Positions 1-25,070 of a stretch of 64,000 bases of DNA are shown piece after piece. Each line of letters starts with the position of its first letter. Position 1 is the first letter of the stretch. Location of the stretch: NCBI RefSeq assembly GCF_032464895.1, contig NZ_JAWDIC010000004.1, positions 372,001 through 436,000 of the forward strand. Direction: 5' to 3'. Position numbers and translations under genes: made by a program. The notes under the pieces were generated by a model. The model did no database searches. It was not told where the DNA came from and saw only the letters and a program-made list of their open reading frames with translations. This stretch comes from Phycicoccus sp. M110.8 (GTDB lineage: Bacteria; Actinomycetota; Actinomycetes; Actinomycetales; Dermatophilaceae).

Positions 1-89
1 GCCCGGGTGAAGAACCGCCGGGTGCCCACGAGGGCCTCGGCGAGGGGCCCGTCGAGGCCCGCGGGTGTCGCGTCGTCGGTGGTGGTCAC
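1..89 (-). CDS. narG: Respiratory nitrate reductase alpha subunit, N-terminal fragment (runs off the window)
   Basis: Only the first 29 or so codons are inside the window. The GTG start at 89 follows an AGGAGG at 98-103 on the minus strand. The translation begins MTTTDDATPAGL and continues DGPLAEALVGTRRFFTR, which resembles the N-terminus of actinobacterial NarG (GPL..LL...RFFT). NarG is the molybdenum (bis-MGD) catalytic subunit of membrane-bound nitrate reductase. It sits 23 bp after the hemerythrin stop, in line with narK, so narK–hemerythrin–narG looks like one transcript. The identification rests on a short stretch plus the narK context; the codons beyond base 1 would settle it. Confidence 0.7.
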   Translation of the reverse strand, partial: MTTTDDATPAGLDGPLAEALVGTRRFFTR

Positions 90-112
90 GGGCGGGCCTC
101 CTGCTGGGCTCG

Positions 113-673
113 TCAGGCGTGCTGGTGGTCGTGGGTGTGGTCGTGCGGGTGGTCCTGGTCGTGCGGGTGGTCGTTGTCGTGCGGGTGGTCGTGGTCGTGG
201 TGTCCGGCGGGCTGCGCGAGGGCCGAGCCGGCGACGAGCCGGGCGGTCTCCACCGAGGCCCAGGCGTCCTCGTCGAGGATCGACAGGGACGCGGGAAAGA
301 GGCCGTCCTGCTCCTTGAGGATGTGGTCGCGCAGGCGCTCCATCGCGGTCAGCAGCTCGGCCGGCCAGGCGGGGTCGTTCGGCGTCCCGGCCGCGGCGCG
401 CGACAGGACCGCCTCGATCTCCCGGTGCTCGCGCTCGAGGACGGCGACGTGGTCGGGGAACTCGTGGGCGAGGTGTGGGAACAGCCCGTGCTCCTCCACG
501 GCCGTGTGGGGCGTGAGGATGCGGGCGATCCGCCGCGCGACCTCCGCGGCGCCCGCGACGTCGCCCTCGCGCACGCACACCCGCACGCGGGCGATCTCGG
601 CGACGACGGCGTCGTGCTCGCGGGTGAGCTCGGCGATGGAGGCGATGTCCTGGCAGCCGCAGTACTCACACAC
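113..673 (-). CDS. Hemerythrin HHE-domain protein with His-rich C-terminal tail
   Basis: This 186-residue protein has a four-helix hemerythrin pattern. Candidate di-iron ligands are H20, H56, E60/H62, H83, H117 and E121, consistent with O2 or NO binding or iron-centre repair. The N-terminus has a C-x2-C-x-C cluster (C2, C5, C7). Residues 158-186 form a tail dominated by His and Asp, encoded by three 18-bp tandem repeats at 140-193, and probably bind metal. The GTG start at 673 overlaps the narK stop (GTGTGA), so translation is coupled. Between narK and narG it may protect against nitric oxide or sense oxygen during nitrate respiration; that role is inferred from context. Confidence 0.85.
   Translation of the reverse strand: MCEYCGCQDIASIAELTREHDAVVAEIARVRVCVREGDVAGAAEVARRIARILTPHTAVEEHGLFPHLAHEFPDHVAVLEREHREIEAVLSRAAAGTPNDPAWPAELLTAMERLRDHILKEQDGLFPASLSILDEDAWASVETARLVAGSALAQPAGHHDHDHPHDNDHPHDQDHPHDHTHDHQHA
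140..200 (-). repeat. 18-bp tandem repeats encoding Asp-His-Pro-His motifs
   Basis: Three consecutive 18-bp units (140-157, 158-175, 176-193) share gtcgtgcgggtggtc and differ only in the last three bases; a partial fourth unit follows. They lie in frame in the hemerythrin gene and produce its His/Asp tail. Copy number of such repeats often varies between strains, so the tail length may be polymorphic. Confidence 0.85.
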
Positions 674-2140: not shown

Positions 2141-3646
2141 GTGGGGACCGGGCAGGTGTCTGCGGCCGGCACCTCCGGGCGTGGCGGCTGGGGGGCGGAC
2201 GTGCGGGAGACGCACTCGGCTGTCGTGGTGCTGCTGGGCGACCGCGCCTACAAGGTGAAGAAGCCGGTCGACCTCGGGTTCCTCGACTTCACGACCCTGG
2301 AGTCCCGCACGGCGGCGATCTCCCGTGAGCTGCGGCTCAACCGCAGGACGGCCCCCGACGTCTACCTGGGCACCCTCGAGGTCCGGGACGCGGGCGGCAC
2401 GGTCTGCGACCACCTCCTGGTGATGCGCCGCATGCCCGAGGACCGGCGGCTGGCCACCCTGGTGCGGGCCGGCGTCGACGTCACGGTCCCGCTCCGGCAG
2501 CTCGCCAGGGACCTGGCGGCCTTCCACTCGACGGCGCGCACCGGCGCCGCGGTCGACGCCTGCGGCTCGCCGGAGGCCCTGCGCGGTCGCTGGGTGGACA
2601 ACCTGCGGGGGCTGCGCCAGCACCCCGTCGACACGGTGCCGCCCCAGCTGCTGGACCAGGTGGAGCAGCTGGCGCTCGAGTTCGTGGAGGGGCGGGCTCC
2701 GTTGCTGCAGAGCAGGATCGACGCCGGCCTGGTGCGGGACGGCCACGGCGACCTGCTCGCCGACGACGTGTTCTGCCTCGAGGACGGGCCGCGGGCCCTG
2801 GACTGCCTCGACTTCGCCGACGAGCTGCGCTGGATGGACGTGCTCGACGACGCCGCCTGCCTCGCCACCGACCTCGAGCGGCTCGGGGACCCGCGCGCGG
2901 GGGAGCGGTTCCTCCACGACTACGAGGAGTTCTCCGGCCGGCGGCAGCCGCCCGCGCTGCGGCACCACTACACGGCATACCGCGCCGTCATGCGGGCGAA
3001 GGTGGCGGCGATCAGGGCCGGTGCCCACGGCCTGCCCTCCGGGCCCGACGCGGACGAGGTGCGGCAGCTGCTCGACATCGGCCTCGCCCACCTGCTGCAG
3101 GGTCGCGTGCGCCTGGTGCTCGTCGGCGGTGGACCCGGCTCGGGCAAGTCGACGCTGTCCTCCGGGCTCGCGGACCGGCTCGGTGCGGTGCTCATGGCGA
3201 GCGATCCCGAGCGGAAGGCGTTGATGGGCCTGGACCCCACGTCGCACGCGCCGGCGGCCTTCGGGCAGGGGATCTACACGCGCGAGGCCACGGCGAGGAC
3301 GTATGCCTCGCTGGCGGACCGCGCCGCGGCCCTGCTCGGGCTCGGGGAGACGGTGGTCGTGGACGCGTCGTTCTCCGACGCCGCCGAGCGGGCGGCGTTC
3401 CGGCAGGTGGGCGTCACGGCGCACGCGCCGGTCGCTGAGCTGGCGTGCACCGCGCCACGCGAGGTGCTGGAGGCGCGGCTGCTTCGGCGCGCGGACGTGC
3501 CGGACCGGCACGGCGACGCGGACCTGGCCATAGGGCGACGGCTCGCCGCCCAGGCGGCCCCGTGGCCGGAGGCCGTCGTGGTGCCGACGGGGGAGACGAC
3601 CAAGGCGGCCACGCTGGACGCGGCCCTGCGCCAGCTCGACCGCTGA
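2141..3646 (+). CDS. Aminoglycoside-phosphotransferase-like / P-loop ATPase fusion (Rv2004c-like)
   Basis: The GTG at 2141 has AGGAGG at 2128-2133 and gives 501 residues. The first 300 or so residues resemble an APH/choline-kinase fold, with VYLGTLEVRD, the catalytic-loop-like RDGHGDLLADDV and a following LDFADELRWMD. Residues from about 328 carry a Walker A loop (GGGPGSGKST) of an AAA_33/gluconate-kinase type domain. Length and domain order match M. tuberculosis Rv2004c, a DosR-regulon member of unknown substrate. A DosR-like box lies 95-110 bp upstream. Substrate and reaction are unknown; membership of the dormancy response is inferred from the box and the family. Confidence 0.85.
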   Translation: MGTGQVSAAGTSGRGGWGADVRETHSAVVVLLGDRAYKVKKPVDLGFLDFTTLESRTAAISRELRLNRRTAPDVYLGTLEVRDAGGTVCDHLLVMRRMPEDRRLATLVRAGVDVTVPLRQLARDLAAFHSTARTGAAVDACGSPEALRGRWVDNLRGLRQHPVDTVPPQLLDQVEQLALEFVEGRAPLLQSRIDAGLVRDGHGDLLADDVFCLEDGPRALDCLDFADELRWMDVLDDAACLATDLERLGDPRAGERFLHDYEEFSGRRQPPALRHHYTAYRAVMRAKVAAIRAGAHGLPSGPDADEVRQLLDIGLAHLLQGRVRLVLVGGGPGSGKSTLSSGLADRLGAVLMASDPERKALMGLDPTSHAPAAFGQGIYTREATARTYASLADRAAALLGLGETVVVDASFSDAAERAAFRQVGVTAHAPVAELACTAPREVLEARLLRRADVPDRHGDADLAIGRRLAAQAAPWPEAVVVPTGETTKAATLDAALRQLDR

Positions 3647-3653: not shown

Positions 3654-6422
3654 CTACCGGCTGTCGCTCGCCGAGACGCCCTCCTGCAGCACGGTCGCCC
3701 TGCCCACCTCGAGCCGCGCCACCGGGACCCGTGGCGGCGAGCACGACACGTAGTCGACGCCGCAGCCGGTGAGGAAGCGGATCGACGCCGGGTCGCCGGC
3801 GTGCTCTCCACAGACGCCGAGCTCGAGCCCGGGCCGCGCCGCCCGACCCCGGTCGACGGCGATGCGCACCAGCTCGCCGACCCCGCGCTGGTCGAGGGTG
3901 ACGAACGGGTCCTCGGGCAGCAGGCCGCTGGTGGCGTAGCTGGTGAGGAAGCTCGCCTGGGCGTCGTCGCGGGACATGCCCCAGGTGGTCTGCGTGAGGT
4001 CGTTCGTGCCGAAGGAGAAGAACTCGGCCAGGCCGGCCAGGTCGTCCGCGGTGAGGGCCGCCCGGGGCAGCTCGATCATGACCCCGACACGCGGGGCGGG
4101 ACGGTCCGAGCCGAGGTCGCGGGACGTCTGCTCGGCGACCTCGAGGATGTGCTCCCGGGCAGCGGCCAGCTCGGCGACGTCGCTGACGAGCGGCACCATC
4201 ACCTCGGGCCGGGGGTCGAGGCCCTCGGCGGCCAGGCGCGTGGCGGCGGTGACGAGCGCCCGCACGTGCGCGTCGACGAGCTCGGGGTGGACTGTCAGCA
4301 GGCGCACGCCGCGCAGGCCGAGCATCGGGTTCGCCTCGGCCCAGCGCCGGGTGGCCTCCAGCCGCGAGGGCAGGGCGTCGGGCACCACGGCGCCCGTCGC
4401 CTCCAGCCGAGCCACCTCGACGGCCAGGTCGGTCGGGTCCGGCAGGAACTCGTGCAGCGGCGGGTCGAGGAGGCGCACCACGACCGGCAGGCCGTCCATG
4501 GCTCGCAGCAGGTCGACGAAGTCGTCGAGCGCGAGCGCCTCGATCCGGGCCAGCGCGTCGTCGGCATGGCTGTCGAGGACGACGCGTTCGACGAGCTCGC
4601 GCCGTTCGCCGAGGAGCATGTGCTCGGTGCGGCACAGCCCGATCCCCGTCGCGCCGGCGGCCCGGGCCTCGGCAGCCTCGGGGGCGGTCTCGGCGTTGAC
4701 GCGGACCTTCACGGCGGCCCGCTGGTCGGCGTGCGCGAGCAGGCGTCGTACCGCCCGCAGCACGACACCGTCGTGCGTCGTGGCCTGCGAGGTGGTGCCG
4801 GCACCCTCGTCGCCCACCGGCGCCGTCCCTGTCGTCGACAGGGCTGGGCTCGTGGTGTCGCTGGTGGGGAGGCCACCGGCCACCGGGCTCGGCCGCACGG
4901 CGAGCGCCCCGGCATACACGGCCCCGGCGGTGCCGTCCACGGAGACGAGGTCGCCCTCGCGGACGACCTGCCCGGACGTGGTGCGGGCCTCACGCGCGTC
5001 CTCGTCCACTACGAGGTCGGAGACTCCTGTGACGCAGGTGCGCCCGAACCCGCGCGCGACGACGGCGGCGTGCGAGGCCAGTCCGCCGCGGGCGGTCACG
5101 ACCGCGATCGCGGCGAGGATGCCGGGGAGGTCCTCGGCGCTGGTCTCGGTGCGGAACAGGACGACGTCCTCGCCGGCCGCGCGCCGGGCCACGGCGGTGG
5201 CCGAGTCGAACACCGCCGTCCCGGCCCCGGCTCCCGGGCTGGCCGGCAGCCCGGTGACCAGGGGCGACGTGCCTTCGGGGACGTCGAACCGGGCGTGCAG
5301 GAGCGACTCGAGCTGGTTGCCGTCGACGCGGACCAGCGCCTCGTCCTCGGTGATGAGCCCCTCCTCGGCCATGTCCGCGGCCATGACGAACGCGGCGGCC
5401 GGGCTGCGCTTGCCGACTCGGGTCTGCAGCATCCACAGCCGGCTGTCCTCGACGGTGAACTCGACGTCGCACAGGTCGCGGTAGTGCTTCTCCAGCGTGG
5501 ACAGGTGCGACAGCAGCTCGCGGTGGGCCGTCGGCTCGAGGTCGGCGAGCCGGGCGAGAGGTACGGTGGCGCGGCTGCCGTTGACGACGTCCTCGCCCTG
5601 CGCGTCGGTCAGGTAGTCGCCGTATGGGGCGGCGTCACCCGTGGCGGGGTTGCGGCTGAAGCACACCCCGGACCCGGAGTGCGGGCCGGTGTTGCCGTAG
5701 ACCATCTGCATCACGGTGACCGCCGTGCCGAGGGTGTCCGGGATGCCCTCATGGCTGCGGTACAGGCGCGCCCGCGGGCTGTTCCACGAGCTGAAGACGG
5801 CGTCGATCGAGCTCGTGAGCTGCGCCCACGGGTCCTGCGGCAGGTCCTCGCCCGTCTCCGCCACGAGGGCACGGCGGTACCGGCGGACGAGGGCGCGCAG
5901 GCCGGTCGCGTCGAGCTCGGCGGCCGAGGCGACGTCGTGGGCGGCGAGCACCTCCGAGCGCATGGTGTCGAAGACCGTCGCAGGTGCCCCGAGGACCGTT
6001 CGCCCGTACATCTCGACCAGTCGCCGGTAGCAGTCCCACACGAACCGCGGGTCCTGGCGCTGGGCGAGCCGCTCGGCCAGCGCGTCGGTGAGCCCGACGT
6101 CGAGGACGGTCTCCATCATGCCGGGCATCGAGAACCGCGCCCCGGAGCGAACCGACACCAGCAGGGGCTGGTCGCCCTCGCCGAAGGTGCGGCCGGTGGA
6201 GCGCTCGAGGGCGACGACGGCTCCTCGGACCAGGCCGTCGAGCTCCTCGGGGCGGTGCCCGGTGCGCAGGTACTCGCGGCACGCCTCGGTCGTGATGGTG
6301 AAGCCGTGCGGGACCGGCAGGCCCAGCCGCGTCATCTCGGCGAGGTTGGCGCCCTTGCCTCCGAGGAGGTCGGCCATGCCGCGTTCGCCGTGGCTGAAGG
6401 GGACGAGCAGGGGTGTGGTCAT
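3654..6422 (-). CDS. ppdK: Pyruvate, phosphate dikinase
   Basis: This 922-residue enzyme interconverts pyruvate + ATP + Pi and phosphoenolpyruvate + AMP + PPi. The N-terminal ATP-grasp domain begins with GGKGANLAEM. The swivelling phosphohistidine domain carries GGLASHAAVVARG with the catalytic His at 451. The C-terminal TIM-barrel has GVMIELPRA, SFGTNDLTQ and the catalytic Cys at about 871 in GVCGEHAGDP. A Ser/Thr/Gly-rich linker (about 510-550) joins the halves. The gene is convergent with the upstream kinase, with only 7 bp between stops. A DosR-like box is centred 42 bp before the ATG, which has no strong ribosome-binding site, suggesting a leaderless or near-leaderless transcript. It could feed gluconeogenesis or use PPi under energy limitation. 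Confidence 0.95.
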   Translation of the reverse strand: MTTPLLVPFSHGERGMADLLGGKGANLAEMTRLGLPVPHGFTITTEACREYLRTGHRPEELDGLVRGAVVALERSTGRTFGEGDQPLLVSVRSGARFSMPGMMETVLDVGLTDALAERLAQRQDPRFVWDCYRRLVEMYGRTVLGAPATVFDTMRSEVLAAHDVASAAELDATGLRALVRRYRRALVAETGEDLPQDPWAQLTSSIDAVFSSWNSPRARLYRSHEGIPDTLGTAVTVMQMVYGNTGPHSGSGVCFSRNPATGDAAPYGDYLTDAQGEDVVNGSRATVPLARLADLEPTAHRELLSHLSTLEKHYRDLCDVEFTVEDSRLWMLQTRVGKRSPAAAFVMAADMAEEGLITEDEALVRVDGNQLESLLHARFDVPEGTSPLVTGLPASPGAGAGTAVFDSATAVARRAAGEDVVLFRTETSAEDLPGILAAIAVVTARGGLASHAAVVARGFGRTCVTGVSDLVVDEDAREARTTSGQVVREGDLVSVDGTAGAVYAGALAVRPSPVAGGLPTSDTTSPALSTTGTAPVGDEGAGTTSQATTHDGVVLRAVRRLLAHADQRAAVKVRVNAETAPEAAEARAAGATGIGLCRTEHMLLGERRELVERVVLDSHADDALARIEALALDDFVDLLRAMDGLPVVVRLLDPPLHEFLPDPTDLAVEVARLEATGAVVPDALPSRLEATRRWAEANPMLGLRGVRLLTVHPELVDAHVRALVTAATRLAAEGLDPRPEVMVPLVSDVAELAAAREHILEVAEQTSRDLGSDRPAPRVGVMIELPRAALTADDLAGLAEFFSFGTNDLTQTTWGMSRDDAQASFLTSYATSGLLPEDPFVTLDQRGVGELVRIAVDRGRAARPGLELGVCGEHAGDPASIRFLTGCGVDYVSCSPPRVPVARLEVGRATVLQEGVSASDSR

Positions 6423-6455: not shown

Positions 6456-6473
6456 CAGGGACCTTGGGCCCTG
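6456..6473. promoter_or_regulatory. DosR-like box B (ppdK / universal stress protein)
   Basis: CAGGGACCTTGGGCCCTG is a near-perfect palindrome with core 6458-6471. Its centre is 42 bp from the ppdK ATG on the minus strand and about 119 bp from the universal stress gene at 6584 on the plus strand. The ppdK spacing would suit a -35-overlapping activator site. Confidence 0.78.
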
Positions 6474-6583
6474 ACCGCCCGGCTCCGATGTCGGCCACCG
6501 TTGGAGCCGAAGGGGTTCTGGCCCGCACCGGGTGGACGGGTCCCTTCGCCCCCACAGTTCCTCCGACCGACAGCGGGTAGGAC

Positions 6584-7471
6584 ATGACAGGCATGCAGCA
6601 GCCAGCGGTGGTCGTCGGGACCGACGGCTCCTGGGAGTCCCACGCCGCCGTCCGCGCGGCGACCCGGCTCGCTGCCCTGCACGGGGAGTCGCTCGTCGTG
6701 CTGGCCGTCTCGCGGCCGGTGGACACCAGCCTCACGGGTCACCGGTCGGCGCAGGACGCCGCCCGGGGCAGGGGAGTGGCCACGGCCACCCGCGCCGTCG
6801 AGCTCGCGCACGAGACCGACTCGACGGTGCACGTCGAGGCCGTGGTGCTGACCGACCTCGAGGACCCCGTCCTGAAGTCGGTCGCCGCCCGGGCGTCGCG
6901 CCTGGTTGTCGGCGGCCACGGCGCGGGTGGGCAGTCGGCCTTCTCGCTCGGGTCGGTGAGCGAGGCGCTCATGCGGCAGATCCCACGGCCCGTGCTCGTC
7001 ACCGCGACCAGCCGCAGCTCCCGGAGGCTGCGCGCGTCGTCCAGCGCCGGCGCCGTCCCCAAGGTGCTCGTCGGCTTCCGGCCCTCGATCGATCCCACCC
7101 ACCTGCTCACCCTGGCCGCCGAGGAGGCCGTCGTTCGGGGGGTGGTGCTGCGGGTGCTGACGAGCGTGCCGGGTCGGGGTGACGTCGCCGAGGTGCAGCA
7201 CGCCGTGTGGGAGGCCATCAGGGCCGACGCGACCTGTGCCGACGTGGCGGCCGAGGTGGAGGTTGTCCGGGAGCCGCCCGAGGACCTGCTGCACGGCGAG
7301 CCCCGGGAGACCGACCTCCTCGTGGTCGGGACCCGCGGTGGCGGCACGCTGGCCGGGCTCGTCCGCGGCTCGGTGGCGCGCAGCGTCCTCGACGACCCGC
7401 CGTGCGACGTCCTCGTGGTGCCCCCCTCGGTACTGGCGGTCCCGACCCGCTCCCACGCCTCTGCCGGCTGA
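6584..7471 (+). CDS. Tandem-domain universal stress protein
   Basis: A 295-residue protein with two UspA-type alpha/beta folds. The first domain starts VVVGTDGSWESHAAV and ends with LVVGGHGAGGQSAF. The second ends with LLVVGTRGGGTLAGLVRGSV, which keeps the G-x2-G-x9-G-S/T ATP-binding pattern, while the start of the second domain (VLVGFRPSIDP) is degenerate. The start at 6584 has only a modest upstream GGTAGGA. It diverges from ppdK across box B. The DosR regulon of M. tuberculosis includes several two-domain USPs of this size, and six USPs lie in this window. The biochemical role is probably ATP-dependent stress signalling. Confidence 0.88.
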   Translation: MTGMQQPAVVVGTDGSWESHAAVRAATRLAALHGESLVVLAVSRPVDTSLTGHRSAQDAARGRGVATATRAVELAHETDSTVHVEAVVLTDLEDPVLKSVAARASRLVVGGHGAGGQSAFSLGSVSEALMRQIPRPVLVTATSRSSRRLRASSSAGAVPKVLVGFRPSIDPTHLLTLAAEEAVVRGVVLRVLTSVPGRGDVAEVQHAVWEAIRADATCADVAAEVEVVREPPEDLLHGEPRETDLLVVGTRGGGTLAGLVRGSVARSVLDDPPCDVLVVPPSVLAVPTRSHASAG

Positions 7472-7836: not shown

Positions 7837-8781
7837 TCAGGCCGACCCTGCCCGCGTCGCAGTCCCTGCCGAGTCGCCCGTGGGCGCCGTGCCGTCGGGG
7901 TGGACGACGGCGACGGGGCAGTGCGCCTTGCGCAGCACGGCCGCCGACACCGAGCCGAGGACGGCGCTGGCCACGGGTCCACGGCCACGGGAGCCCACGA
8001 CGAGCAGGCCGGCGCCCGAGCTGAGCTTGACCAGCTCGGCGATGGCGTCCCGCTGGGCCACGTGGACGCGGACGTCGACGTCCGGGAACTCCTCACGGAA
8101 CCCGGCCAGCGACTCGGACGCCACCGCGCGCTCGTCCATCTCGCCCCGGATGGGGTCCTCCGGCCACCACTCGGCGGACGGAGTCCTGATGTCGGGCTGC
8201 CAGGTGTGCACGGCCGTGATGCCGACCCGCCGGCGCCGGGCCTCCTCGAAGGCGAACCGCAGAGCCGGCGCGGAGACCTCGCTGCCGTCGACGCCCACGA
8301 CCACCCGCTGGTCGGGGATCGTCGTCGAGGCCGCGTGGCGGACCACGACGACCGGGGCGTGGGCGTGCTCGGTGACGGCCTTCGAGACCGAGCCGAGCAC
8401 CATGCCGCGCAGGGCTCCAAGCCCGCGCGCGCCGAGCGCGGCGACACAGGCGTGGCGGGACTCCTCGACGAGGGTCCGGGCGGGGTCGGACCCGGGGACC
8501 ACCCGCACCACCACGTCCAACGACGGGTGAGCGTGGCGCACCCTGGTGCCCACCGCCTCGCAGCGCGCGTGCGGGAGGGTCGGTGGCGGGATGTCGCCGT
8601 ATGCCGCGGGGTGGTCGGCGTCGGTCACGACCACGGCGGGCAGCGGTGTCGGCGGGGCGACGTGGACCAGCTCGAGGGCGCAGCCGCGCAGGACCGCCTC
8701 GGCAGCACCCCAGTCGACCGCCAGCTCGCTGGTGGCGGAGAGGTCCAGTCCGACCAGGACCGGGGCCGGCGCGGCGTTCAC
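7837..8781 (-). CDS. Tandem-domain universal stress protein
   Basis: A 314-residue protein with two USP domains. Domain 1 has VLVGLDLSATSELAVDWG and ALGARGLGALRGMVLGSVS; domain 2 has VVVGVDGSEVSAPALRFAF and VVGSRGRGPVASAVLGSVS. Both keep the G-x2-G-x9-G-S nucleotide motif, so both may bind ATP. The GTG start overlaps the stop of the preceding gene (GTGA at 8778-8781), so it is translationally coupled as the third gene of a USP operon led by DosR-like box C. The C-terminal 20 residues are Thr/Ala/Gly-rich. Confidence 0.9.
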   Translation of the reverse strand: MNAAPAPVLVGLDLSATSELAVDWGAAEAVLRGCALELVHVAPPTPLPAVVVTDADHPAAYGDIPPPTLPHARCEAVGTRVRHAHPSLDVVVRVVPGSDPARTLVEESRHACVAALGARGLGALRGMVLGSVSKAVTEHAHAPVVVVRHAASTTIPDQRVVVGVDGSEVSAPALRFAFEEARRRRVGITAVHTWQPDIRTPSAEWWPEDPIRGEMDERAVASESLAGFREEFPDVDVRVHVAQRDAIAELVKLSSGAGLLVVGSRGRGPVASAVLGSVSAAVLRKAHCPVAVVHPDGTAPTGDSAGTATRAGSA

Positions 8782-10159: not shown

Positions 10160-10177
10160 AAGGGGCGAAGGTCCCTT
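10160..10177. promoter_or_regulatory. DosR-like box C (three-USP operon)
   Basis: On the minus strand this reads AAGGGACCTTCGCCCCTT, with the shared core GGGACYTTSGNCCY at 10162-10175. It is centred about 57 bp before the first USP gene at 10111. Confidence 0.75.
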
Positions 10178-15707: not shown

Positions 15708-15812
15708 GTGCCGATCCTCCTGCGACTGGGGGGAAGTGCGCACGCAGGAGTATGCCGGGGCGCCGGCGGTGTGCCGACGGGCGCGCGCCGGTCCGAGCCG
15801 TTCGGCTGAGGC

Positions 15813-15848
15813 AGGTCCGCCCGAGAGGTCAGGTCCGCCCGAGAGGTC
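15813..15848. repeat. 18-bp tandem direct repeat, two copies
   Basis: Two identical 18-bp units (aggtccgcccgagaggtc) at 15813-15830 and 15831-15848 lie back to back, the second running into the stop codon of the lipoprotein gene. Probably a recent slippage duplication; I see no function. Confidence 0.7.
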
Positions 15849-17137: not shown

Positions 17138-17566
17138 TCAGGAGGAGAAGGACGTCTCCAGCGTGATCGGCACCGCCTTCAGCGCGGCACTGACCGGGCA
17201 GTTCTCCTTGGCGTCCTGGGCCGCCTTCTCGAATTCCTCGGCGGTGATGCCGGGGACGGCGCCCACGACGGACAGCGCGATGCCGGTGATCCCGGTGCCG
17301 GGCTGGAACGTCACCTCCGCCGTCGTGTCGATCGTGGTGGGCGGGGTGCCGGCCTGGGCCAAGCCGTGCGACAGCGCCATCGAGTAGCAGGTCGAGTGCG
17401 CCGCGGCGATGAGCTCCTCGGGGCTGGTCTTCCCGTTCGCCTTCTCCGCGCGCGACGGCCACGACACGGCATACGTCCCGATGCCGGAGGACGTGAGGGT
17501 GACCTCGCCGGAGCCCTCCATGAGGGACCCCTCCCAGTGGGCGGCGGCGGTGCGGGTGGTGGCCAT
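17138..17566 (-). CDS. OsmC-family peroxiredoxin (OsmC/Ohr fold)
   Basis: 142 residues. OsmC proteins reduce organic hydroperoxides with two cysteines. Cys60 lies in AAAHSTCYSMALS and Cys123 in ENCPVS, both in the expected context, and the family's KTSPEELIAAAH segment precedes the first. The length matches the OsmC subgroup (about 140). It is likely cytosolic. The DosR-like box D lies 87-104 bp upstream of its start on the divergent side, so joint regulation with the CBS gene is possible but unproven. Confidence 0.92.
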   Translation of the reverse strand: MATTRTAAAHWEGSLMEGSGEVTLTSSGIGTYAVSWPSRAEKANGKTSPEELIAAAHSTCYSMALSHGLAQAGTPPTTIDTTAEVTFQPGTGITGIALSVVGAVPGITAEEFEKAAQDAKENCPVSAALKAVPITLETSFSS

Positions 17567-17652: not shown

Positions 17653-17670
17653 CAGGGACCTTCGACCCTG
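17653..17670. promoter_or_regulatory. DosR-like box D (CBS-BON–dosS operon)
   Basis: CAGGGACCTTCGACCCTG, core 17655-17668, is centred about 81 bp before the CBS-BON start at 17743 and about 95 bp before the divergent OsmC gene. Confidence 0.75.
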
Positions 17671-17742
17671 TGCCCGCACCGGCGTCGTGGCGAGCATCGG
17701 GGTGCAGCCGGACGCCCGCCCGGTGCCGCGCGAGGAGGAGCC

Positions 17743-18372
17743 GTGCTCGTCAGTGAGCTCATGACCACCAACGTCGTCGCCGTCGACACCGAGTGCCCGC
17801 TGGACGCCGCGGTGCGGCTGCTGGCGGACCGTGGCGTCTCGGCGCTGCCGGTCGTCGACCGGAGCGGCCTCGTGGTGGGGATCCTCAGCGAGGCCGACGT
17901 CCTGCGCCTGCACCTCGCGGCGGACACCCGGGCGCACCTGCGGCCGCTGGCCCCCACAGCGCCCGAGGACGCCGCGTGGCCCCGGTACGTCGACGCGGTC
18001 ATGACACCGGACCCGGTGACGGTCCACCGCGGGGCGGACGTGGCCGAGGTGGCAGCCGTCATGGCGGACACCGGCTGGAAGAGCATGCCGGTCGTGGACG
18101 AGCACGGCGCCCTGTGCGGCATCGTCAGCCGCAGCGACGTCATCCGCGTCCTGGGGCGTGCGGACGCCGAGATCTGGTCGCAGGTCGTGCACGACATCGC
18201 CGGTGTGGCCGGGGAGGGCTGCACCGTGGAGGTCCACCGGGGCGTCGTCACGCTGTCCGGCCTGGGGTCCGAGAGCGCGGCACGGGTGGCCTCGGCCATC
18301 GCCTCGACCGCCCCCGGCGTGCGCTCGGTGGTGGTGGACCGGACACCCCGCGATGTCCGGAGCGACGCCTGA
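17743..18372 (+). CDS. Two-CBS-domain protein with C-terminal BON domain
   Basis: 209 residues from the GTG at 17743, preceded by GAGGAGGAG; an earlier in-frame start at 17641 would overlap box D. Two CBS motifs pair up: MTTNVVAVDTECPLDAAVRLL with SALPVVDRSGLVVGILSEADV, and MTPDPVTVHRGADVAEVAAVM with SMPVVDEHGALCGIVSRSDV. Residues about 140-205 fit a BON domain (VEVHRGVVTLSG). CBS pairs usually bind adenine nucleotides. The M. tuberculosis DosR-regulon protein Hrp1 (Rv2626c) is a two-CBS protein without BON. The dosS-like sensor follows 21 bp downstream, so the two are probably co-transcribed. Confidence 0.88.
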   Translation: MLVSELMTTNVVAVDTECPLDAAVRLLADRGVSALPVVDRSGLVVGILSEADVLRLHLAADTRAHLRPLAPTAPEDAAWPRYVDAVMTPDPVTVHRGADVAEVAAVMADTGWKSMPVVDEHGALCGIVSRSDVIRVLGRADAEIWSQVVHDIAGVAGEGCTVEVHRGVVTLSGLGSESAARVASAIASTAPGVRSVVVDRTPRDVRSDA

Positions 18373-18393: not shown

Positions 18394-20052
18394 ATGGGGC
18401 CCGTGGCAGCGGACGAGACGACCGACGGGGGCGGCCCGGGCAGCATGTTCCGGCTCTCGACCCTCGAGCTGGACGACCTGCTCGACGAGCTGCGGGCCCG
18501 CGCGGGCAGCGCCCGGGCTGCCCAGGAGCGGCTCTCGGCGCTGCTCGACGCCGTGGTGGCGGTGAGCTCGGACCTCGAGCTCGCCACGGTTCTGCGCCGC
18601 ATCGTGGAGTCGGCCTGCCACCTCGTCGGGGCCCGGTACGGCGCCCTGGGTGTCCTCGGCCCCGAGGGTGACGAGCTCATCGAGTTCGTGACGCACGGGA
18701 TCAGCGACGAGGACCGGGAGCGGATCGGGCCCCTGCCGCACGGCCGCGGCTTGCTGGGGCTGCTGATCCACAGCCCGCACCCGCAACGGGTGGCGCGGAT
18801 CAGCGAGCACCCGGAGTCCTACGGCTTCCCGGAGAACCACCCCGTGATGACGAGCTTCCTCGGGACACCCATCCGCATCCGCAACGAGGTGTTCGGCAAC
18901 CTGTACATGACGGACAAGCGGACCGGCGAGGAGTTCTCGGCCGACGACGAGGTCATCCTCACCGCGCTGGCCGCGGCGGCCGGCGTCGCCATCGACAACG
19001 CCCGGCTCTACAACCGCAGCGTGATGCAGCACCGCTGGGGCGGGGCGACACGCGACCTCGTGTCGGCGCTGCTGCAGGGCCGGGCGCAGGAGGACGTCCT
19101 TGCGGCCGCGAGCCGGTACGTCCTGGAGCTGACCGACGCCACGAGCTGCGCGATCGCCGTGCCCCGCGGCACCGACCTCGTCGTCGCAGCCACTGCCGGG
19201 GAGGGTGCGCCGCCCGTCGGCACCGTCGTCGAGGACGCCGACTGGCGCGCCGAGCTCGCGTCGCCCTCGCAAGGCGTCCGTGAGGCGGGCGCTGGGCTGG
19301 TGCTGCTCTCCCTGGGCGCCGGTGCGGAACCCCTCGGGGTGCTGGCGGTCCAGGACGTCAGCACCGTCAACGGGTACTCGGCGGCGTTGATGGACTTCGC
19401 CCAGCGGCTGGGCGTCGGGCTCACCGCCGCCCAGGCCCAGCACGAGCGCGGGCGGATGGAGATGCTCGAGGACCGCGACCGCATCGCCCGGGACATGCAC
19501 GACCACGTCATCCAACGGCTCTTCGCCACCGGCCTGTCCCTGCAGTCGGTGGGCCGGCAGCTCACCGATCCGGCAGCCCGCGAGCGGGTCGAGGCAGCCG
19601 TCGACGAGGTCGACGCCGTCATCAAGGACATCCGCCACACCATCTTCGCGCTGCACCGTTCGCCGGACTCGCGAAGCCTGGCCGCCGAGATCACGACCCT
19701 GTGCGAGAACGCCGTCGTCACCCTCGGCTTCGCGCCGACCCTCACGGTGCGGGGAACCCTCGTGGACGTGCCGGACCAGCTGGCGGCCGACCTGCTCGCC
19801 GTCGTCCGTGAGGCCCTGAGCAACGCCGCCCGGCACGCCGGCGCCAGCGTCGTCTCGGTCGTCGTGGAGGCGGACGAGGCCTTGCGCGTGGAGGTCCGCG
19901 ACAACGGCCGGGGCGTCCAACCCGGGACACGGCGCTCGGGCCTGGACAACCTCGCCCGCCGCGCCACCACCCGTGGGGGACAGCTCGTGATCGCGGCCCC
20001 CGACGAGGGCGGCACCGAGCTCGTCTGGTCGGTGCCGCTCCTCGAGCGCTGA
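18394..20052 (+). CDS. dosS: DosS/DosT-type GAF-GAF sensor histidine kinase
   Basis: 552 residues. GAF-A (about 55-200) has ARYGALGVLG, and ENHPVMTSFLGTPIRIR leads into FGNLYMTDK. His149 and Tyr171 fall at the same numbers and 22-residue spacing as the haem-ligand His149 and distal Tyr171 of M. tuberculosis DosS, so a haem gas sensor is likely. GAF-B is at about 225-345. HisKA_3 has RIARDMHDHVIQRLF with the phospho-acceptor His369; HATPase_c has REALSNAARHAGA and DNGRGV. The cognate regulator is most likely the NarL-type protein at 21123, one gene further on. It follows the CBS-BON gene by 21 bp and probably depends on box D. Confidence 0.93.
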   Translation: MGPVAADETTDGGGPGSMFRLSTLELDDLLDELRARAGSARAAQERLSALLDAVVAVSSDLELATVLRRIVESACHLVGARYGALGVLGPEGDELIEFVTHGISDEDRERIGPLPHGRGLLGLLIHSPHPQRVARISEHPESYGFPENHPVMTSFLGTPIRIRNEVFGNLYMTDKRTGEEFSADDEVILTALAAAAGVAIDNARLYNRSVMQHRWGGATRDLVSALLQGRAQEDVLAAASRYVLELTDATSCAIAVPRGTDLVVAATAGEGAPPVGTVVEDADWRAELASPSQGVREAGAGLVLLSLGAGAEPLGVLAVQDVSTVNGYSAALMDFAQRLGVGLTAAQAQHERGRMEMLEDRDRIARDMHDHVIQRLFATGLSLQSVGRQLTDPAARERVEAAVDEVDAVIKDIRHTIFALHRSPDSRSLAAEITTLCENAVVTLGFAPTLTVRGTLVDVPDQLAADLLAVVREALSNAARHAGASVVSVVVEADEALRVEVRDNGRGVQPGTRRSGLDNLARRATTRGGQLVIAAPDEGGTELVWSVPLLER

Positions 20053-20077: not shown

Positions 20078-20096
20078 CAGGGGACTTTCGCCCCTG
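20078..20096. promoter_or_regulatory. DosR-like box E (USP–dosR operon)
   Basis: CAGGGGACTTTCGCCCCTG is a 19-bp near-perfect palindrome, core 20081-20094. It lies in the gap after dosS and is centred about 45 bp before the USP ATG at 20132. It implies that the USP–dosR transcript is autoregulated. Confidence 0.8.
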
Positions 20097-20131
20097 TCCG
20101 CCCCGGCGTGGCGACGGTCACCGTGAGCCGC

Positions 20132-21067
20132 ATGGATCGCACCCCCGCGGCCGCTCGAGGACATCAGGCCACCGCCGTGGACGACCTCCCGGACCTCGTC
20201 GGCCGTGAGGTCGTCGTCGGCTACGACGCGACACCAGCCGCCGACGCCGCCGTCCGGTGGGCCGCGCTGGAGGCGGCGCGGCTGCGCTCGGCCCTCACGG
20301 TGGTGTGCGCCGTGGACCCGGGCTCGGTGGACGGTGCCCACACGCCACAACCGGAGCTGGCACGGGTGGGCCGGGAGCTCGCCCGGCGCGGGGCCGACGT
20401 GGCGCACCGGGCAGCGCCGGACGGCATACCCGCACGTGTCGTCGGTGCGATCGGCGGAGCGGCCGGAGAGCTCGTCGCCAGGTCCGCCTCCGCGGCACTC
20501 CTGGTGGTGGGGGCACCACGGCTGCGCGGCGTGGCCGCCCTGGGCTCGGTGTCCTTCGGCGTGACGCTGCACGCCCGCTGCCCCGTCGTCCTGGTCCCGG
20601 AGGGCACCGAGCTGAGCCACCGTCACGACGTCGGTGACGTGGTCGTGGGCGCGGACGGCTCCCGGGCCTCGCGCACCGCCGTCGAGCTGGCCGCTCAGCT
20701 CGCCCTGGCCCGGAACCGCCGCCTGCGGGTCGTCACCGCCTGGCTGCCTGCGCCCGTGCCGAGCGCCACGACGGCCGGCGCGGTCCGCAGGCAGCAGGAT
20801 GCCGTGCGGCAGGACATCGCGCGCGAGGACCTGGCCGCTGTGGTGGAACAGGTGCAGCGCAGGCACCCGGCCCTGGAGGTGACCGGTACGGCGGTCCGCG
20901 GCCACGCCGTCGACGTCCTCGTCGCGAGTGCGCGCGACGCTGGGCTGCTCGTGGTCGGCAGCCGCGGGCACGGCGGTTTCGCGGGGCTCGCGCTGGGCTC
21001 GGTGAGCCACGCGGTCGTGCGCTCGGCCAGGGTCCCTGTCGCGGTCGTACGCCAGGGTTGGTGGTGA
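20132..21067 (+). CDS. Tandem-domain universal stress protein (Rv3134c position)
   Basis: 311 residues from the ATG at 20132. An upstream in-frame GTG at 20108 lies only 12 bp from box E and is unlikely; a GTG at 20177 is a shorter alternative. Domain 1 has VVVGYDATPAADAAVRWAA and LVVGAPRLRGVAALGSVSFG. Domain 2 has VVVGADGSRASRTAVELAA and LVVGSRGHGGFAGLALGSVS. In M. tuberculosis a USP gene (Rv3134c) sits directly upstream of dosR in one operon, and the same order is kept here, with the dosR-like gene 55 bp downstream. Confidence 0.88.
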   Translation: MDRTPAAARGHQATAVDDLPDLVGREVVVGYDATPAADAAVRWAALEAARLRSALTVVCAVDPGSVDGAHTPQPELARVGRELARRGADVAHRAAPDGIPARVVGAIGGAAGELVARSASAALLVVGAPRLRGVAALGSVSFGVTLHARCPVVLVPEGTELSHRHDVGDVVVGADGSRASRTAVELAAQLALARNRRLRVVTAWLPAPVPSATTAGAVRRQQDAVRQDIAREDLAAVVEQVQRRHPALEVTGTAVRGHAVDVLVASARDAGLLVVGSRGHGGFAGLALGSVSHAVVRSARVPVAVVRQGWW

Positions 21068-21122: not shown

Positions 21123-21791
21123 GTGAAGATCGGCGTGTACCTGCTCGACGACCACGAGGTCGTCCGTCGCGGGCTGCGGGAGCTGCTGGAGGTCGAGGAG
21201 GACCTCCTCGTCGTGGGCGAGTCGGGGAGCGCCCAGGAGGCGGCCCGGCGCATCCCGGCGCTGAGGCCCTCGGTCATGGTGCTCGACGCCAGGCTGCCCG
21301 ACGGCTCCGGCATCGACGTGTGCCGCGACGTGCGCTCGGTCGACCCGTCGATCGCCGGCCTGATCCTCACGTCCTACGACGACGAGGAGGCCCTGACCGC
21401 CGCCGTCACCGCGGGAGCGGCCGGGTACGTCCTCAAGGACATCCACGGCAGCGACCTGGTCACCTCGATCCGCCGGGTCGCGGCCGGCGAGACGCTGCTC
21501 GACGCGGCTGTGGTCGAGCGGCTCCGGGCCCAGTGGGGCCACCAACAGCCCACCGACCCCCGGCTGGCCAGCCTCACCCCGCAGGAGCGGCGCATCCTCG
21601 AGTGCGTCGGCGAGGGCCTGACGAACCGGCAGATCGGCGAGCGCCTGTCCCTGGCGGAGAAGACGGTCAAGAACTACGTCACGTCGGTCCTGGGCAAACT
21701 CGGCATGGAGCGCCGGACCCAGGCCGCGGTCTACGTCGCCGGGCAGGGGCTCAACCACAACGGGTCCACGAGCCCGGGACCGCACGGCTGA
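21123..21791 (+). CDS. dosR: DosR/DevR-type NarL-family response regulator
   Basis: 222 residues. The receiver domain has the acidic pocket D9-D10, phospho-acceptor D55 (VLDARLPDGSGID), T83 and K105. The C-terminal LuxR helix-turn-helix has GLTNRQIGERLSLAEK then TVKNYV and LGKLGMERRTQAA. K180, K183 and N184 correspond to the DNA-contact residues K179, K182 and N183 of mycobacterial DosR. Similarity runs along the whole length, starting with LLDDHEVVRRGL. The GTG at 21123 has GGAGG seven bases upstream. It is the likely reader of boxes A-F and the partner of the sensor at 18394. A strong palindrome follows the gene. Confidence 0.95.
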   Translation: MKIGVYLLDDHEVVRRGLRELLEVEEDLLVVGESGSAQEAARRIPALRPSVMVLDARLPDGSGIDVCRDVRSVDPSIAGLILTSYDDEEALTAAVTAGAAGYVLKDIHGSDLVTSIRRVAAGETLLDAAVVERLRAQWGHQQPTDPRLASLTPQERRILECVGEGLTNRQIGERLSLAEKTVKNYVTSVLGKLGMERRTQAAVYVAGQGLNHNGSTSPGPHG

Positions 21792-21855: not shown

Positions 21856-22317
21856 TCAGCCGACGGAGCGCCCGCTGACGGACTGGGCCCGTACCCTCAC
21901 CCAGGTCATCGAGTCGGGCTCGACGGGCACCCACAGGGCCGGCGCGTGCTGGTCGAGCCGGCGCACCTCGGCCTCCTCCTCGACGATGGTGGCGACGCCC
22001 TGCACGAGCACGCTCCAGCCGGTGCGTGTCGAAGCGTCGAAGGCGTCGGCCTCGTAGCCGACCCGTTCGCGGTCCACCGCCGCCTGGATCTTGGAGCTGC
22101 CGGCGGTCCGGAAGCAGACGTCCACGCCGTCGACCAGGTGCGCCACCGGCAGCACCGTGATCTCGCCGTCGAGCTCGAACGCAATCCGCCCCACCGGCAC
22201 CGAGGCCACCAGCTCGAGGCACTCGTCGAGGTCGAGCACCCGCAGTCCGGTGTGGTCGGTGGGGACGTCGGCGCCGGTCCGGTGGGCGCCGGCCGGTCGG
22301 GCCTGGTCGGTCGTCAT
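21856..22317 (-). CDS. Pyridoxamine 5'-phosphate oxidase-like split-barrel flavin protein
   Basis: 153 residues of the Pyridox_ox_2 / FMN-binding split-barrel type: VPVGRIAFELDGEITVLPVAHLVDG, then VCFRTAGSSKIQAAV and GWSVLVQGVATIV. The family binds FMN or F420 and reduces varied substrates; it is not a true PdxH. The M. tuberculosis DosR regulon includes a member of this type (Rv3129). Its ATG overlaps the stop of the preceding USP (ATGA at 22314-22317), so it should be controlled from box F. The exact cofactor is unknown. Confidence 0.85.
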   Translation of the reverse strand: MTTDQARPAGAHRTGADVPTDHTGLRVLDLDECLELVASVPVGRIAFELDGEITVLPVAHLVDGVDVCFRTAGSSKIQAAVDRERVGYEADAFDASTRTGWSVLVQGVATIVEEEAEVRRLDQHAPALWVPVEPDSMTWVRVRAQSVSGRSVG

Positions 22318-23249
22318 GGCGTCACCGCCTGCGATCCTGCGGCGGACACGACGGGGGCCTGCGACGGCACGGTCTCGGGCTGGGACCGCACCACCATCAC
22401 CGGGCAGTGCGCGTGGTGCAGGACGCCCTGGCTCACCGAGCCCAGGACCAGCCCACCGAAGCCGCCACGACCGCGGGTGCCCACGACGAGGAGCTCGGCG
22501 CCCTTGGAGTGGTCGACGAGGGCCTGCACGGGGTGGGCGTTGAGGACGTGCTCACGGACGCTGACACCGGGGTACCTCGCGGACCACCGCGCCACGGCGT
22601 CGTGGGCCAGCGACCGCTCCTCCTGTGCGAGTTCGGCGATCTGGGCGTCGGTGGCGAGCACGGCCAGGCCGGTGCCCGCGTAGTCGAGGAACCAGGCGTG
22701 GACCACCGTGAGCGGCAGCCCGCGGGCGTCGGCCTGGTGGAACGCCTCCCCGAGCGCGCCCTCGCTGATGGGTGAGCCGTCGATGCCGACCACGACACCG
22801 GGGCGGTCCGGAAGGGCCTGCGAGAGCTCGCGGACGACGACCACGGGGCTGTGCGCGTGGGCGGCGACGTCGAGTGAGGTGGACCCGAGCATCGCGCTGC
22901 GCAGGGCACCGCGGCCGCGCGCTCCCACGACGAGCATCGTGGCGTCGCGGGAGGCGTCGACCAGCATCGGCGCCGCTGCGCCGTGTGCGCCGGACGTCGT
23001 CACGGACGTGTAGGGCGCCAGGGAGTGCACGCGCGCCACGGCGTCCTCGAGGACGCCGTCGACGCCGGGCCGGGTGAACGCGGTCTCGACCGCGGGTCCC
23101 CGCAACGGCATCGGGCGTGCGTGGACGAGCTCGAGGGGCAGGTCACGTCGCCGGGCCTCGTCGATCGCCCAGTCCAGGGCCAGCCGGCTCTGCGCGCTCT
23201 CGTCGACACCCACGACGATGGGGTGCGACGTGGTGGGGGTGGTCGACAT
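22314..23249 (-). CDS. Tandem-domain universal stress protein
   Basis: 311 residues from the ATG at 23249, four bases after AGGAGG. Domain 1 has IVVGVDESAQSRLALDWAI and VVGARGRGALRSAMLGSTS. Domain 2 has VVVGIDGSPISEGALGEAF and VVGTRGRGGFGGLVLGSVS. Both have complete G-x2-G-x9-G-S motifs. It is co-translated with the split-barrel flavin protein downstream. Box F is centred about 88 bp upstream and is shared with the divergent flavin protein gene at 23380. Confidence 0.9.
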   Translation of the reverse strand: MSTTPTTSHPIVVGVDESAQSRLALDWAIDEARRRDLPLELVHARPMPLRGPAVETAFTRPGVDGVLEDAVARVHSLAPYTSVTTSGAHGAAAPMLVDASRDATMLVVGARGRGALRSAMLGSTSLDVAAHAHSPVVVVRELSQALPDRPGVVVGIDGSPISEGALGEAFHQADARGLPLTVVHAWFLDYAGTGLAVLATDAQIAELAQEERSLAHDAVARWSARYPGVSVREHVLNAHPVQALVDHSKGAELLVVGTRGRGGFGGLVLGSVSQGVLHHAHCPVMVVRSQPETVPSQAPVVSAAGSQAVTP

Positions 23250-23328: not shown

Positions 23329-23346
23329 CAGGGACTTTGGGCCTTG
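23329..23346. promoter_or_regulatory. DosR-like box F (divergent USP / flavin protein–CoA-transferase)
   Basis: CAGGGACTTTGGGCCTTG, core 23331-23344. Its centre is 42 bp from the ATG at 23380 and about 88 bp from the USP ATG at 23249. Confidence 0.75.
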
Positions 23347-23379
23347 AAGCGCTGGAAGCGGACAGGGCACCGTGGAGCC

Positions 23380-23844
23380 ATGGACGCCAACCAACCCGTC
23401 GCCGGTGCCGTGCCGCTCGAGGTTCTCGAGGTGCCCGAGTGCTGGGCGCTGCTGCGCGAGCAGCCGGTCGGGAGGCTGGCCGTCCTGCACGACGGCCGGC
23501 CGGACATCTTCCCCGTCAACTTCGTGGTCGACCACGGCAGCCTGGTCTTCCGCACCGGGTCGGGCACCCTCTTCGCCAGCGCCGCGGGGTCGTGGGTGGC
23601 GTTCGAGGTCGACGGGTATGCCGCCGAGGAGGGCAGGGCCTGGAGCGTCGTCGTGCGTGGCCGCGCGCGGGAGGTCCACGACGTCGACGACATCCTCGAC
23701 GTGCTGACCCTGCCGCTGCTGCCGTGGCACGCGGGACCCAAGCCACGGCTGGTCCGCATCGAGCCCGACTCGGTGAGCGGTCGCAGGTTCCCGGTGCGGG
23801 GCGGCTACCGCGCCACGACCGGGCCGGCCCGGCCGACCGAGTGA
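23380..23844 (+). CDS. Pyridoxamine 5'-phosphate oxidase-like split-barrel flavin protein (second copy)
   Basis: 154 residues, same fold as the 21856 gene: LREQPVGRLAVLHDGRPDIFPVNFVVDHG, LVFRTGSGTLFA, WSVVVRGRAREV and a C-terminal RIEPDSVSGRRF. The ATG has only a short, weakly spaced GGAG upstream and lies 42 bp from the centre of box F, the same spacing as ppdK, so a leaderless message is possible. Its stop overlaps the GTG of the CoA-transferase gene (GTGA), making a two-gene unit. A flavin- or F420-dependent redox role is expected; the substrate is unknown. Confidence 0.85.
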   Translation: MDANQPVAGAVPLEVLEVPECWALLREQPVGRLAVLHDGRPDIFPVNFVVDHGSLVFRTGSGTLFASAAGSWVAFEVDGYAAEEGRAWSVVVRGRAREVHDVDDILDVLTLPLLPWHAGPKPRLVRIEPDSVSGRRFPVRGGYRATTGPARPTE

Positions 23845-25070
23845 GGGCCGTCGACCTCGCGGCCCTAGAGCGCCGCCTCGCCGCGCTGCCCGGCCGCCCC
23901 CGGGTCGTCGTCAGCGGCAACGCCGCCACCCCGTGGACGGTGGTCGACGCGCTCGACCGGGCCGTCCCGGCATACCGGCTCTGGATGCTCAACGCCGGCG
24001 CCGGGGTGCCGGTGCGCGACGGGGTCGTCGCGGAGACCGCCTTCGTCGGGCCGGGGATGCGCCACCACCCGGCCCTGTCCTACCTGCCGTGCCGGCTGTC
24101 CATGGCACCGCTCCTGCTGCGGTCGGTGACGCCTCCCGACGTCGTCGTGGTGCACTGCGCGCCGCCGGAGGCCGGCCGGCTCAGCCTCGGCACCGAGGTG
24201 AACGTCCTGCCTGCCGCCGTGGAGGCCTGCCGTGCCCGCGGGGGGCTCGTCGTGGCGGTGGTGAACCGGTACATGCCGTTCACGTACGGCGACGCCGAGC
24301 TGGACGTGGAGGCGGTCGACCTCGCGGTGGAGGTCGACGCCCCGCTGCCGACGCCCGTGCGGGCCGTGCCCGACGAGGCGAGCCGGCTCGTGGCAGAGCG
24401 GGTCTCTGCGCGGGTGGAGGACGGCGCCACGGTGCAGATGGGCATCGGTGCCGTGCCGGACTGCGTGGTCGCGGGGCTGACGGCGCGCCGGCGGCTCGGG
24501 GTCTGGACCGAGATGTTCTCCGACGGGCTGCTGTCGCTGCACGCCTCCGGGGCCCTCGACCCCGACCGCGAGGTCACCGCGTCGTTCTGCTTCGGCTCGC
24601 CCGAGCTCTACGACCACGTGGACCACAACCGGGCCATCAGGATGCTGCGCACCGAGCGCACCAACGACCCGGCGAGGATCGCCGCGAACCCGGCCATGGT
24701 CAGCATCAACACCGCGTTGGAGGTCGACCTCTACGGGCAGGTCAACGCCTCCCGGGTCGGCGGCCGGATCCACTCCGGGTACGGCGGTCAGACCGACTTC
24801 ATCGTCGGGGCCCTGCACTCGCCCGGAGGCCAGGCGTTGATCGCGCTGCGCAGCTGGCACCCGCGTGCCGACGTGTCGACGATCGTGCCGCTGCTCGACG
24901 AGCCGGTGACGTCGTTCCAGCCGAGCGCGGTGCTCACCGAGCACGGGGTGGCGCCGCTGTTCGGGTGCGACCAGCAGGCGCAGGCCAGGGCCCTGATCGA
25001 GCACACCGCCCACCCACGGGTGCGCGACGAGCTGTGGGAGGAGGCGCGGGCCCTCGGCCTGGCCACCTGA
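23841..25070 (+). CDS. Acetyl-CoA hydrolase / 4-hydroxybutyrate CoA-transferase family enzyme
   Basis: 409 residues of the acetyl-CoA hydrolase/transferase family. GIGAVPDCVVAGL is followed by VWTEMFSDGL, whose Glu is where the family's catalytic thioester-forming glutamate lies. The C-terminal half has VSINTALEVDLYGQVNA and GRIHSGYGGQTDF, the usual CoA-site motifs. It moves CoA between acyl-CoA and a short acid such as acetate, or hydrolyses acyl-CoA. The GTG at 23841 overlaps the flavin gene stop, so it probably belongs to the box F unit. It could support acetate disposal or acetyl-CoA balancing at low oxygen. Confidence 0.88.
   Translation: MRAVDLAALERRLAALPGRPRVVVSGNAATPWTVVDALDRAVPAYRLWMLNAGAGVPVRDGVVAETAFVGPGMRHHPALSYLPCRLSMAPLLLRSVTPPDVVVVHCAPPEAGRLSLGTEVNVLPAAVEACRARGGLVVAVVNRYMPFTYGDAELDVEAVDLAVEVDAPLPTPVRAVPDEASRLVAERVSARVEDGATVQMGIGAVPDCVVAGLTARRRLGVWTEMFSDGLLSLHASGALDPDREVTASFCFGSPELYDHVDHNRAIRMLRTERTNDPARIAANPAMVSINTALEVDLYGQVNASRVGGRIHSGYGGQTDFIVGALHSPGGQALIALRSWHPRADVSTIVPLLDEPVTSFQPSAVLTEHGVAPLFGCDQQAQARALIEHTAHPRVRDELWEEARALGLAT

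Follow-up and report, generated by a model that had tools for sequence, protein, structure and literature searches.

A putative DosR/OsdR-type low-oxygen regulon and its predicted promoter layout in Phycicoccus sp. M110.8

We analyzed a stretch of 64,000 nucleotides from the 4.12-Mb genome of Phycicoccus sp. M110.8 (positions 372001-436000 of contig NZ_JAWDIC010000004.1, C4 in what follows), which is referred to here as the window and has a GC content of 73.5%. Its first 25,070 nucleotides hold an island of genes around a NarL-type response regulator and a sensor kinase, with six copies of the core GGGACYTTSGNCCY and, according to Pfam and NCBIfam, six genes for universal stress proteins (USPs). 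Judged from the sequence, the island is very probably the core of an oxygen-responsive regulon of the DevR/DosR/OsdR type, and very likely serves survival at low oxygen, as do the programmes already known from tuberculosis bacteria and Streptomyces. The features are listed in window coordinates; "hexamer" stands for NANNNT, offsets such as +24 count bases downstream of a site on the side concerned, and operons were inferred from strand and spacing.

1-89, minus: 5' end of narG; narGHJI runs on to the left of the window (molybdopterin oxidoreductase at L026:2376-6089; NarH, NarJ and NarI by Pfam)
113-673, minus: hemerythrin-domain protein, on the same strand as narK and narG (Pfam Hemerythrin 7.7e-19)
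666-1841, minus: narK-type nitrate/nitrite transporter (Pfam MFS_1, longer frame; NCBIfam NarK family 6.2e-56, below its cut-off); in-frame ATG at 1931 as alternative start
2033-2046, plus: DosR-type site between narK and the Rv2004c-like gene; hexamer at +24 on both sides (2070-2075, plus; 2009-2004, minus)
2141-3646, plus: AAA_33 ATPase-domain protein, 501 aa (Pfam AAA_33 5.8e-25, longer frame); "Rv2004c-like" by domain only
3654-6422, minus: pyruvate phosphate dikinase, ppdK (TIGR01828, 1033.7 bits, over cut-off); ATG 36 bases after the site
6458-6471, plus: DosR-type site between ppdK and a USP gene; hexamer at +25 on the plus side (6496-6501) and +24 on the minus side (6434-6429)
6593-7471, plus: tandem USP (Pfam Usp, two stretches); start at 6584 or 6593
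7837-8781, minus: tandem USP (Pfam Usp), in a probable operon with the next two genes
8778-9131, minus: single-domain USP (Pfam Usp 2.2e-7)
9200-10111, minus: tandem USP (Pfam Usp), first gene past site 10162
10162-10175, minus: DosR-type site; hexamer at +24 on the gene side (10138-10133), none at +19 to +34 on the other
10346-11107, minus: short-chain dehydrogenase (SDR), a candidate further target (Pfam adh_short_C2 2.8e-60)
11168-11181, minus: candidate seventh site with one mismatch, preceding the SDR gene; hexamer at +25 towards SDR, none at +19 to +34 on the other side
17138-17566, minus: OsmC-family protein, a doubtful target (Pfam OsmC 1.5e-18), facing the minus side of site 17655 at 89 bases
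17655-17668, plus: DosR-type site before CBS-BON and dosS; hexamer at +24 (17692-17697)
17743-18372, plus: CBS-pair plus BON protein (Pfam CBS and BON on a longer frame of the same gene)
18394-20052, plus: dosS-type sensor kinase (GAF-GAF-HisKA_3-HATPase by Pfam; first GAF domain, GAF-A, matching DosT and DevS in PDB)
20081-20094, plus: DosR-type site before USP-dosR; hexamer at +25 (20119-20124) and another at +19; none at +19 to +34 on the other side
20132-21067, plus: tandem USP (Pfam Usp on frame 20108-21067); ATG 38 bases after the site
21123-21791, plus: dosR/devR-type response regulator (PDB 3c3w, DevR, E 3e-63)
21856-22317, minus: PNPOx-like flavin protein (Pfam Pyridox_ox_2 2e-24), downstream of the next USP gene on the same strand
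22314-23249, minus: tandem USP (Pfam Usp 3.9e-53)
23331-23344, plus: DosR-type site between the USP and PNPOx-like genes; hexamer at +24 on both sides (23368-23373, plus; 23307-23302, minus)
23380-23844, plus: PNPOx-like split-barrel flavin protein (Pfam Pyridox_ox_2 3e-30, longer frame); ATG 36 bases after the site
23841-25070, plus: acetyl-CoA hydrolase/CoA-transferase family protein (Pfam AcetylCoA_hyd_C 8.6e-47; TIGR03948 below cut-off)

A pattern scan of both strands of the window returned exactly six matches to GGGACYTTSGNCCY, at the places and on the strands given for them in a preliminary description of this DNA, against a mean of 0.03 and a maximum of 1 in 100 dinucleotide-shuffled windows. 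Genome-wide there were 23 exact matches, whereas the reversed pattern matched once. A weight matrix built from the 17 sites outside the window placed the same six positions at ranks 1 to 6 (scores 20.0-24.8), although this ranking is partly circular because the 17 training sites had been picked with the core of the preliminary description itself. The next scores in the window were 14.6 at 11168 (minus strand) and 12.4 at 1609 (minus strand), while the reversed window reached 13.1 at most; the match at 11168-11181 is likely a seventh site. All six exact sites are intergenic, as had been described, under the gene starts called here, but those at 2033, 17655 and 23331 fall within longer alternative frames of neighbouring genes, so that the statement depends on the choice of start. 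With only six of the 23 exact genome matches inside the window and 17 elsewhere, the island is not the complete regulon that it had been called, and its description as compact is not supported. Ten of the 23 sites cluster in 57 kb (C4:337976-395344), and more than half of that span lies to the left of the window. The core showed a preferred orientation in this genome (10 to 1, p 0.012), which we dropped as a general rule, the relatives giving only 16 to 7 (p 0.09).

The sequence of the response regulator supports its assignment to the DevR/DosR/OsdR type. It combines a NarL-type receiver with a GerE/LuxR helix-turn-helix domain (Pfam), its best PDB match is DevR (3e-63), followed by VraR (9.8e-36), and it is the one match in the genome at E values up to 1e-40. 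The phospho-acceptor aspartate and the conserved threonine and lysine are kept (D55, T83 and K105, equivalent to D54, T82 and K104 of DevR), as are K180, K183 and N184, which correspond to the DNA-contacting K179, K182 and N183 of DevR. All six are the same throughout the 80 relatives that were fetched as the best of 586, but this conservation is partly circular because the peptides used for fetching, such as AEKTVKNY, contain some of these residues. The nearest named regulator among the matches listed, a list that may omit the window's own genome, is that of Knoellia locipacati (80%); no paper mentioning both DosR and Knoellia was found.

The kinase, likewise the one match in the genome (E up to 1e-20), consists of two GAF domains, HisKA_3 and HATPase_c (Pfam), and its GAF-A domain matches DosT (4.4e-49) and DevS (1e-44 to 1.2e-43) in PDB. 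The proximal heme histidine, His149, and the distal Tyr171 align with both proteins. At the channel position the kinase carries Gly86, as does DosT (G85), and not the Glu87 of DosS; among 65 kinase relatives this position is Gly in 63, the heme His is kept in 63 and the Tyr in 62. Passages of the review PMC4082495 relate a proposal that Glu87 restricts the access of O2 in DosS whereas Gly85 leaves the channel of DosT open, and they also report a disagreement over DosS autooxidation that clouds this view. These features point to an O2-binding, DosT-like sensor, and the DosR/DosS-type pair of the preliminary description holds up at the level of domains and key residues.

The closest precedent is OsdR/OsdK of Streptomyces coelicolor (SCO0204/SCO0203), published in 2016, in which OsdR binds DevR target promoters (PMC5069765); therefore the island belongs to an already known kind, and the novelty outside mycobacteria that had been implied for it is not supported. 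According to passages of the same source, OsdR has predicted or tested sites at USP genes, at PPDK/USP, at narK-hemerythrin opposite a pyridoxamine-oxidase gene and at narG2, for which AGGGACCTTCGGCCCC is printed. The two systems share the regulator-kinase pair, the site core and, among the targets, USPs, PPDK opposite a USP, narK-hemerythrin, a pyridoxamine-oxidase-type gene and nitrate reductase. They differ in that osdR-osdK forms one operon, whereas here dosS follows CBS-BON and is in turn followed by USP-dosR, making two units, and in that the S. coelicolor nitrate reductase has its own site (parts of PMC5069765), whereas narGHJI here continues the narK-hemerythrin run and seems to share its site. 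The core of the window is also close to GGGACTTNNGNCCCT, the published stringent DosR motif used for M. smegmatis in a section of PMC6448022, and stands upstream of the predicted targets.

With DevR/DosR-DosS/DosT of M. tuberculosis, the island shares key residues of regulator and kinase, the site and, as a prediction here, its overlap with the -35 element, which part of PMC3029386 portrays for the site proximal to the transcription start point. Unlike M. tuberculosis, which has two kinases, the present genome yielded one, of the DosT type (Gly) at the channel residue; nitrate reductase and cydAB belong to the predicted regulon here; and the exact sites are mostly single, with weaker neighbouring sites possible. 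The DosR regulon of M. tuberculosis includes genes for USP, narK-type, Hsp20 and cation P-type ATPase proteins, and the same types occur among the predicted targets here. The preliminary description was right in relating the target types to known DosR/OsdR regulons.

In the mechanism that we propose, a fall in O2, or its displacement by NO or CO, would lead the DosT-type heme-GAF kinase to phosphorylate the NarL-family regulator, which would then bind the 14-bp near-palindrome as a dimer and recruit RNA polymerase. Sites stand before both the CBS-BON-dosS and the USP-dosR units, as had been noted; therefore kinase and regulator would both be subject to positive feedback. The predicted outputs in the window are narK-hemerythrin-narGHJI for nitrate respiration, ppdK, USPs, flavin proteins, the CoA-transferase-family protein and probably the SDR. 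Site 2033 appears to head the nitrate run: narG, narH, narJ and narI follow in line on the narK-hemerythrin strand. The nitrate reductase ascribed to the island thus lies almost wholly to the left of the window, with only the start of narG (window positions 1-89) inside. Outside the window, cydAB, Hsp20 with a cation P-type ATPase, a GAF-ANTAR protein and further USPs would be controlled through the same layout.

This layout concerns the distance between the site and a -10-like hexamer, and it was found after several looks at motifs and offsets, so that the following figures do not represent one planned test. NANNNT starts 24-25 bases downstream on the forward side of all six window sites. It is present at this offset on nine of the ten sides that face a gene and on neither of the two that do not (the far sides of 10162 and 20081). 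Sites 2033, 6458 and 23331 are flanked by divergent genes and carry it on both sides; 17655 also has divergent neighbours, but towards the OsmC-type gene, to which the preliminary description had not referred, the hexamer occurs at +31 only. Of all 23 sites in the genome, 15 have the hexamer at +24/25 on their forward side (other offset pairs: mean 0.7, maximum 4) and 5 have it on their reverse side (mean 0.5, maximum 3). In relatives it was found on the forward side of 15 of 45 sites (mean 1.6, maximum 12) and of 8 of 31 (mean 1.5, maximum 5), and, with a looser core at the relatives' 80 dosR loci, on 47 of 135 gene-facing sides (mean 6.6, maximum 32). TGG occurs at +28 to +31 in 12 of the 23 genome sites, against a maximum of 4 in slid windows.

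The start codons extend this pattern. An in-frame ATG lies at +36 to +38 in 5 of 27 stretches of this genome (0.9 expected if even) and in 30 of 120 in relatives (4.0 expected); about 21 of these 30 sit directly upstream of dosR in related genera and do not count as independent cases. The five cases include ppdK and the PNPOx-like gene at 23380 (both +36), and the USP gene at 20132 (+38) was noted by inspection. Because these genes start about where transcription should begin, we predict leaderless mRNAs for ppdK, for the PNPOx-like gene and for the USP before dosR; leaderless DosR promoters are not claimed as unpublished. On this basis the site would cover roughly -50 to -37, a class-II position that replaces the -35 element. 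A portion of PMC3029386 describes the site proximal to the transcription start point as overlapping the -35 element at DevR targets, and ANNNT is the -10 type in 79% of 6,090 M. smegmatis promoters (part of PMC6448022). TANNNT, which we also tried as the -10 element, had no matches in 16 promoters of this genome, unlike ANNNT, which did give matches.

Beyond the window, sites with the hexamer at +24/25 precede cydAB (C1:1880990), Hsp20 with a cation P-type ATPase (C4:345345), USP genes (C4:343076 and C4:573160), a GAF-ANTAR protein (C1:2179261), a GNAT/acyl-CoA-synthetase-like gene opposite a beta-CASP protein (C4:359241) and short open reading frames with no Pfam match (C1:1315184 and C1:1777019); C1:2184192 has the hexamer but no clear target gene. 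C2:64704 and C4:337976 have no hexamer at this offset. Ribonucleotide reductase was rejected as the target of C1:1990099, which is about 440 bp from nrdA and whose hexamer points the other way, to a gene with an LPG-synthase-type domain. C1:1786010 (DUF881), C1:1919041 (TetR-MMPL) and C5:197279 show the hexamer on neither side and probably represent chance matches. Two pairs of sites were seen: C1:2179261 and C1:2179405, 144 bp apart before the GAF-ANTAR gene, the latter with a hexamer at +22 only, and C4:572997 and C4:573160, 163 bp apart before a USP gene, the former without one. In both pairs one partner carries the hexamer at +25.

Several of our results weigh against a DosR/OsdR-type oxygen regulon and its promoter layout, and we consider them together with the alternatives. 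It is unlikely, but still the most serious of these, that the pair, though orthologous in sequence, senses a signal other than O2/NO (redox state or development), with a general stationary-phase or stress programme in place of a hypoxia programme as its output. In S. coelicolor, OsdR has development and stress under its control as well, and part of PMC5069765 calls its signal unconfirmed; moreover, the island is dominated by USPs, the window containing 11 of the 24 Usp-domain matches in the genome. However, the heme His, the distal Tyr and the DosT-type Gly are all kept in the kinase, and narGHJI and cydAB make sense as targets at low O2.

Much less probable is that the core belongs to a different NarL-family regulator or is a structural repeat, with the proximity of dosR being incidental. 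The distribution in relatives bears on this directly. At the 80 dosR loci, all of named contigs, there are 45 copies of the exact core, 43 of them outside called genes (reversed control, 1), and 113 of the looser, mycobacterial-like core, 109 of them outside (reversed, 5), although 39% of the relatives' DNA carries no gene call. Among 57 related genomes, with the window's own genome left out, the 35 with a regulator match (E up to 1e-60) average 4.71 sites and the 22 without it 2.00 (Mann-Whitney p 0.0011). On the other hand, the 16 relatives with no regulator match at 1e-40 still hold 1.94 sites on average against 0.81 in the control, and G004, of the same genus, has a regulator match of 5e-93 yet only one exact site; with a wider core, palindromes being counted on both strands, it has 4 against 3 in the control, compared with 47 against 4 in the present genome and 7 against 6 in G001, a congener with no regulator match. 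The 23 exact sites found here are also far above the 1-9 in congeners with a close regulator (G001-G010 compared). We nevertheless favour a DosR-type site, since the core is enriched at dosR loci across actinobacterial genera, is coupled to the regulator and closely matches the published stringent motif. Gene order is less conserved: in a tblastn search at 1e-15 of up to 10 kb on each side of dosR, none of the 80 loci had narK/hemerythrin, whereas ppdK was found in 5, CBS-BON in 8 and dosS in 67.

Chance matches in GC-rich DNA can be dismissed as the origin of the whole set, which the excess over shuffled and reversed controls and the preferred spacing to the hexamer contradict, although single sites may be due to chance: with two mismatches allowed the window shows no excess (21 matches against a shuffle mean of 17.8), and some genome matches are to be taken as chance because 8 of the 23 lack the forward hexamer at +24/25 and C5:197279 sits inside a methyltransferase gene.

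With the DosR/OsdR-type regulon as the preferred explanation, we tentatively suggest that, outside mycobacteria, such promoters follow a rigid grammar (site, 24-25 bases, ANNNT as -10, about 5-7 bases, often an ATG and a leaderless start) under a single DosT-type O2-binding kinase, with Glu87 of DosS as a mycobacterial addition; we hold this with somewhat less than even confidence. The promoter part is tempered because the hexamer is also enriched on the sides called non-gene-facing in relatives (43 of 183 with the looser core; other offsets: mean 9.3, maximum 17), for which missed genes may account, and because GTG codons show no peak at +36 to +38 (1 of 31 in this genome and 6 of 111 in relatives). 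The TGG test also failed in 31 sites of further relatives (5 against an upstream-window maximum of 7).

Within the island, the block at 11203-16833 (a UvrA-like ABC ATPase, a MASE1 histidine kinase and a DUF4185 protein) has no exact site of its own. To the right of the island, 25811-64000 holds mostly ordinary metabolism and housekeeping, judged from the 10 of 39 called genes that were scanned: a luciferase-like monooxygenase, a FAD-binding protein, a cyclopropane synthase, an acyl-CoA oxidase, a class II tRNA synthetase, an acyltransferase, a glycosyltransferase, YebC, RuvB and SecF.

The island would extend the range of DosR/OsdR-type low-oxygen programmes to another actinobacterial lineage, here with nitrate respiration and cytochrome bd among the outputs. 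The spacing rule suggests a way to ease the prediction of DosR/OsdR-type regulon members, and with Gly at the heme channel in nearly all of the kinase relatives, the origin of the mycobacterial two-kinase system becomes a testable question.

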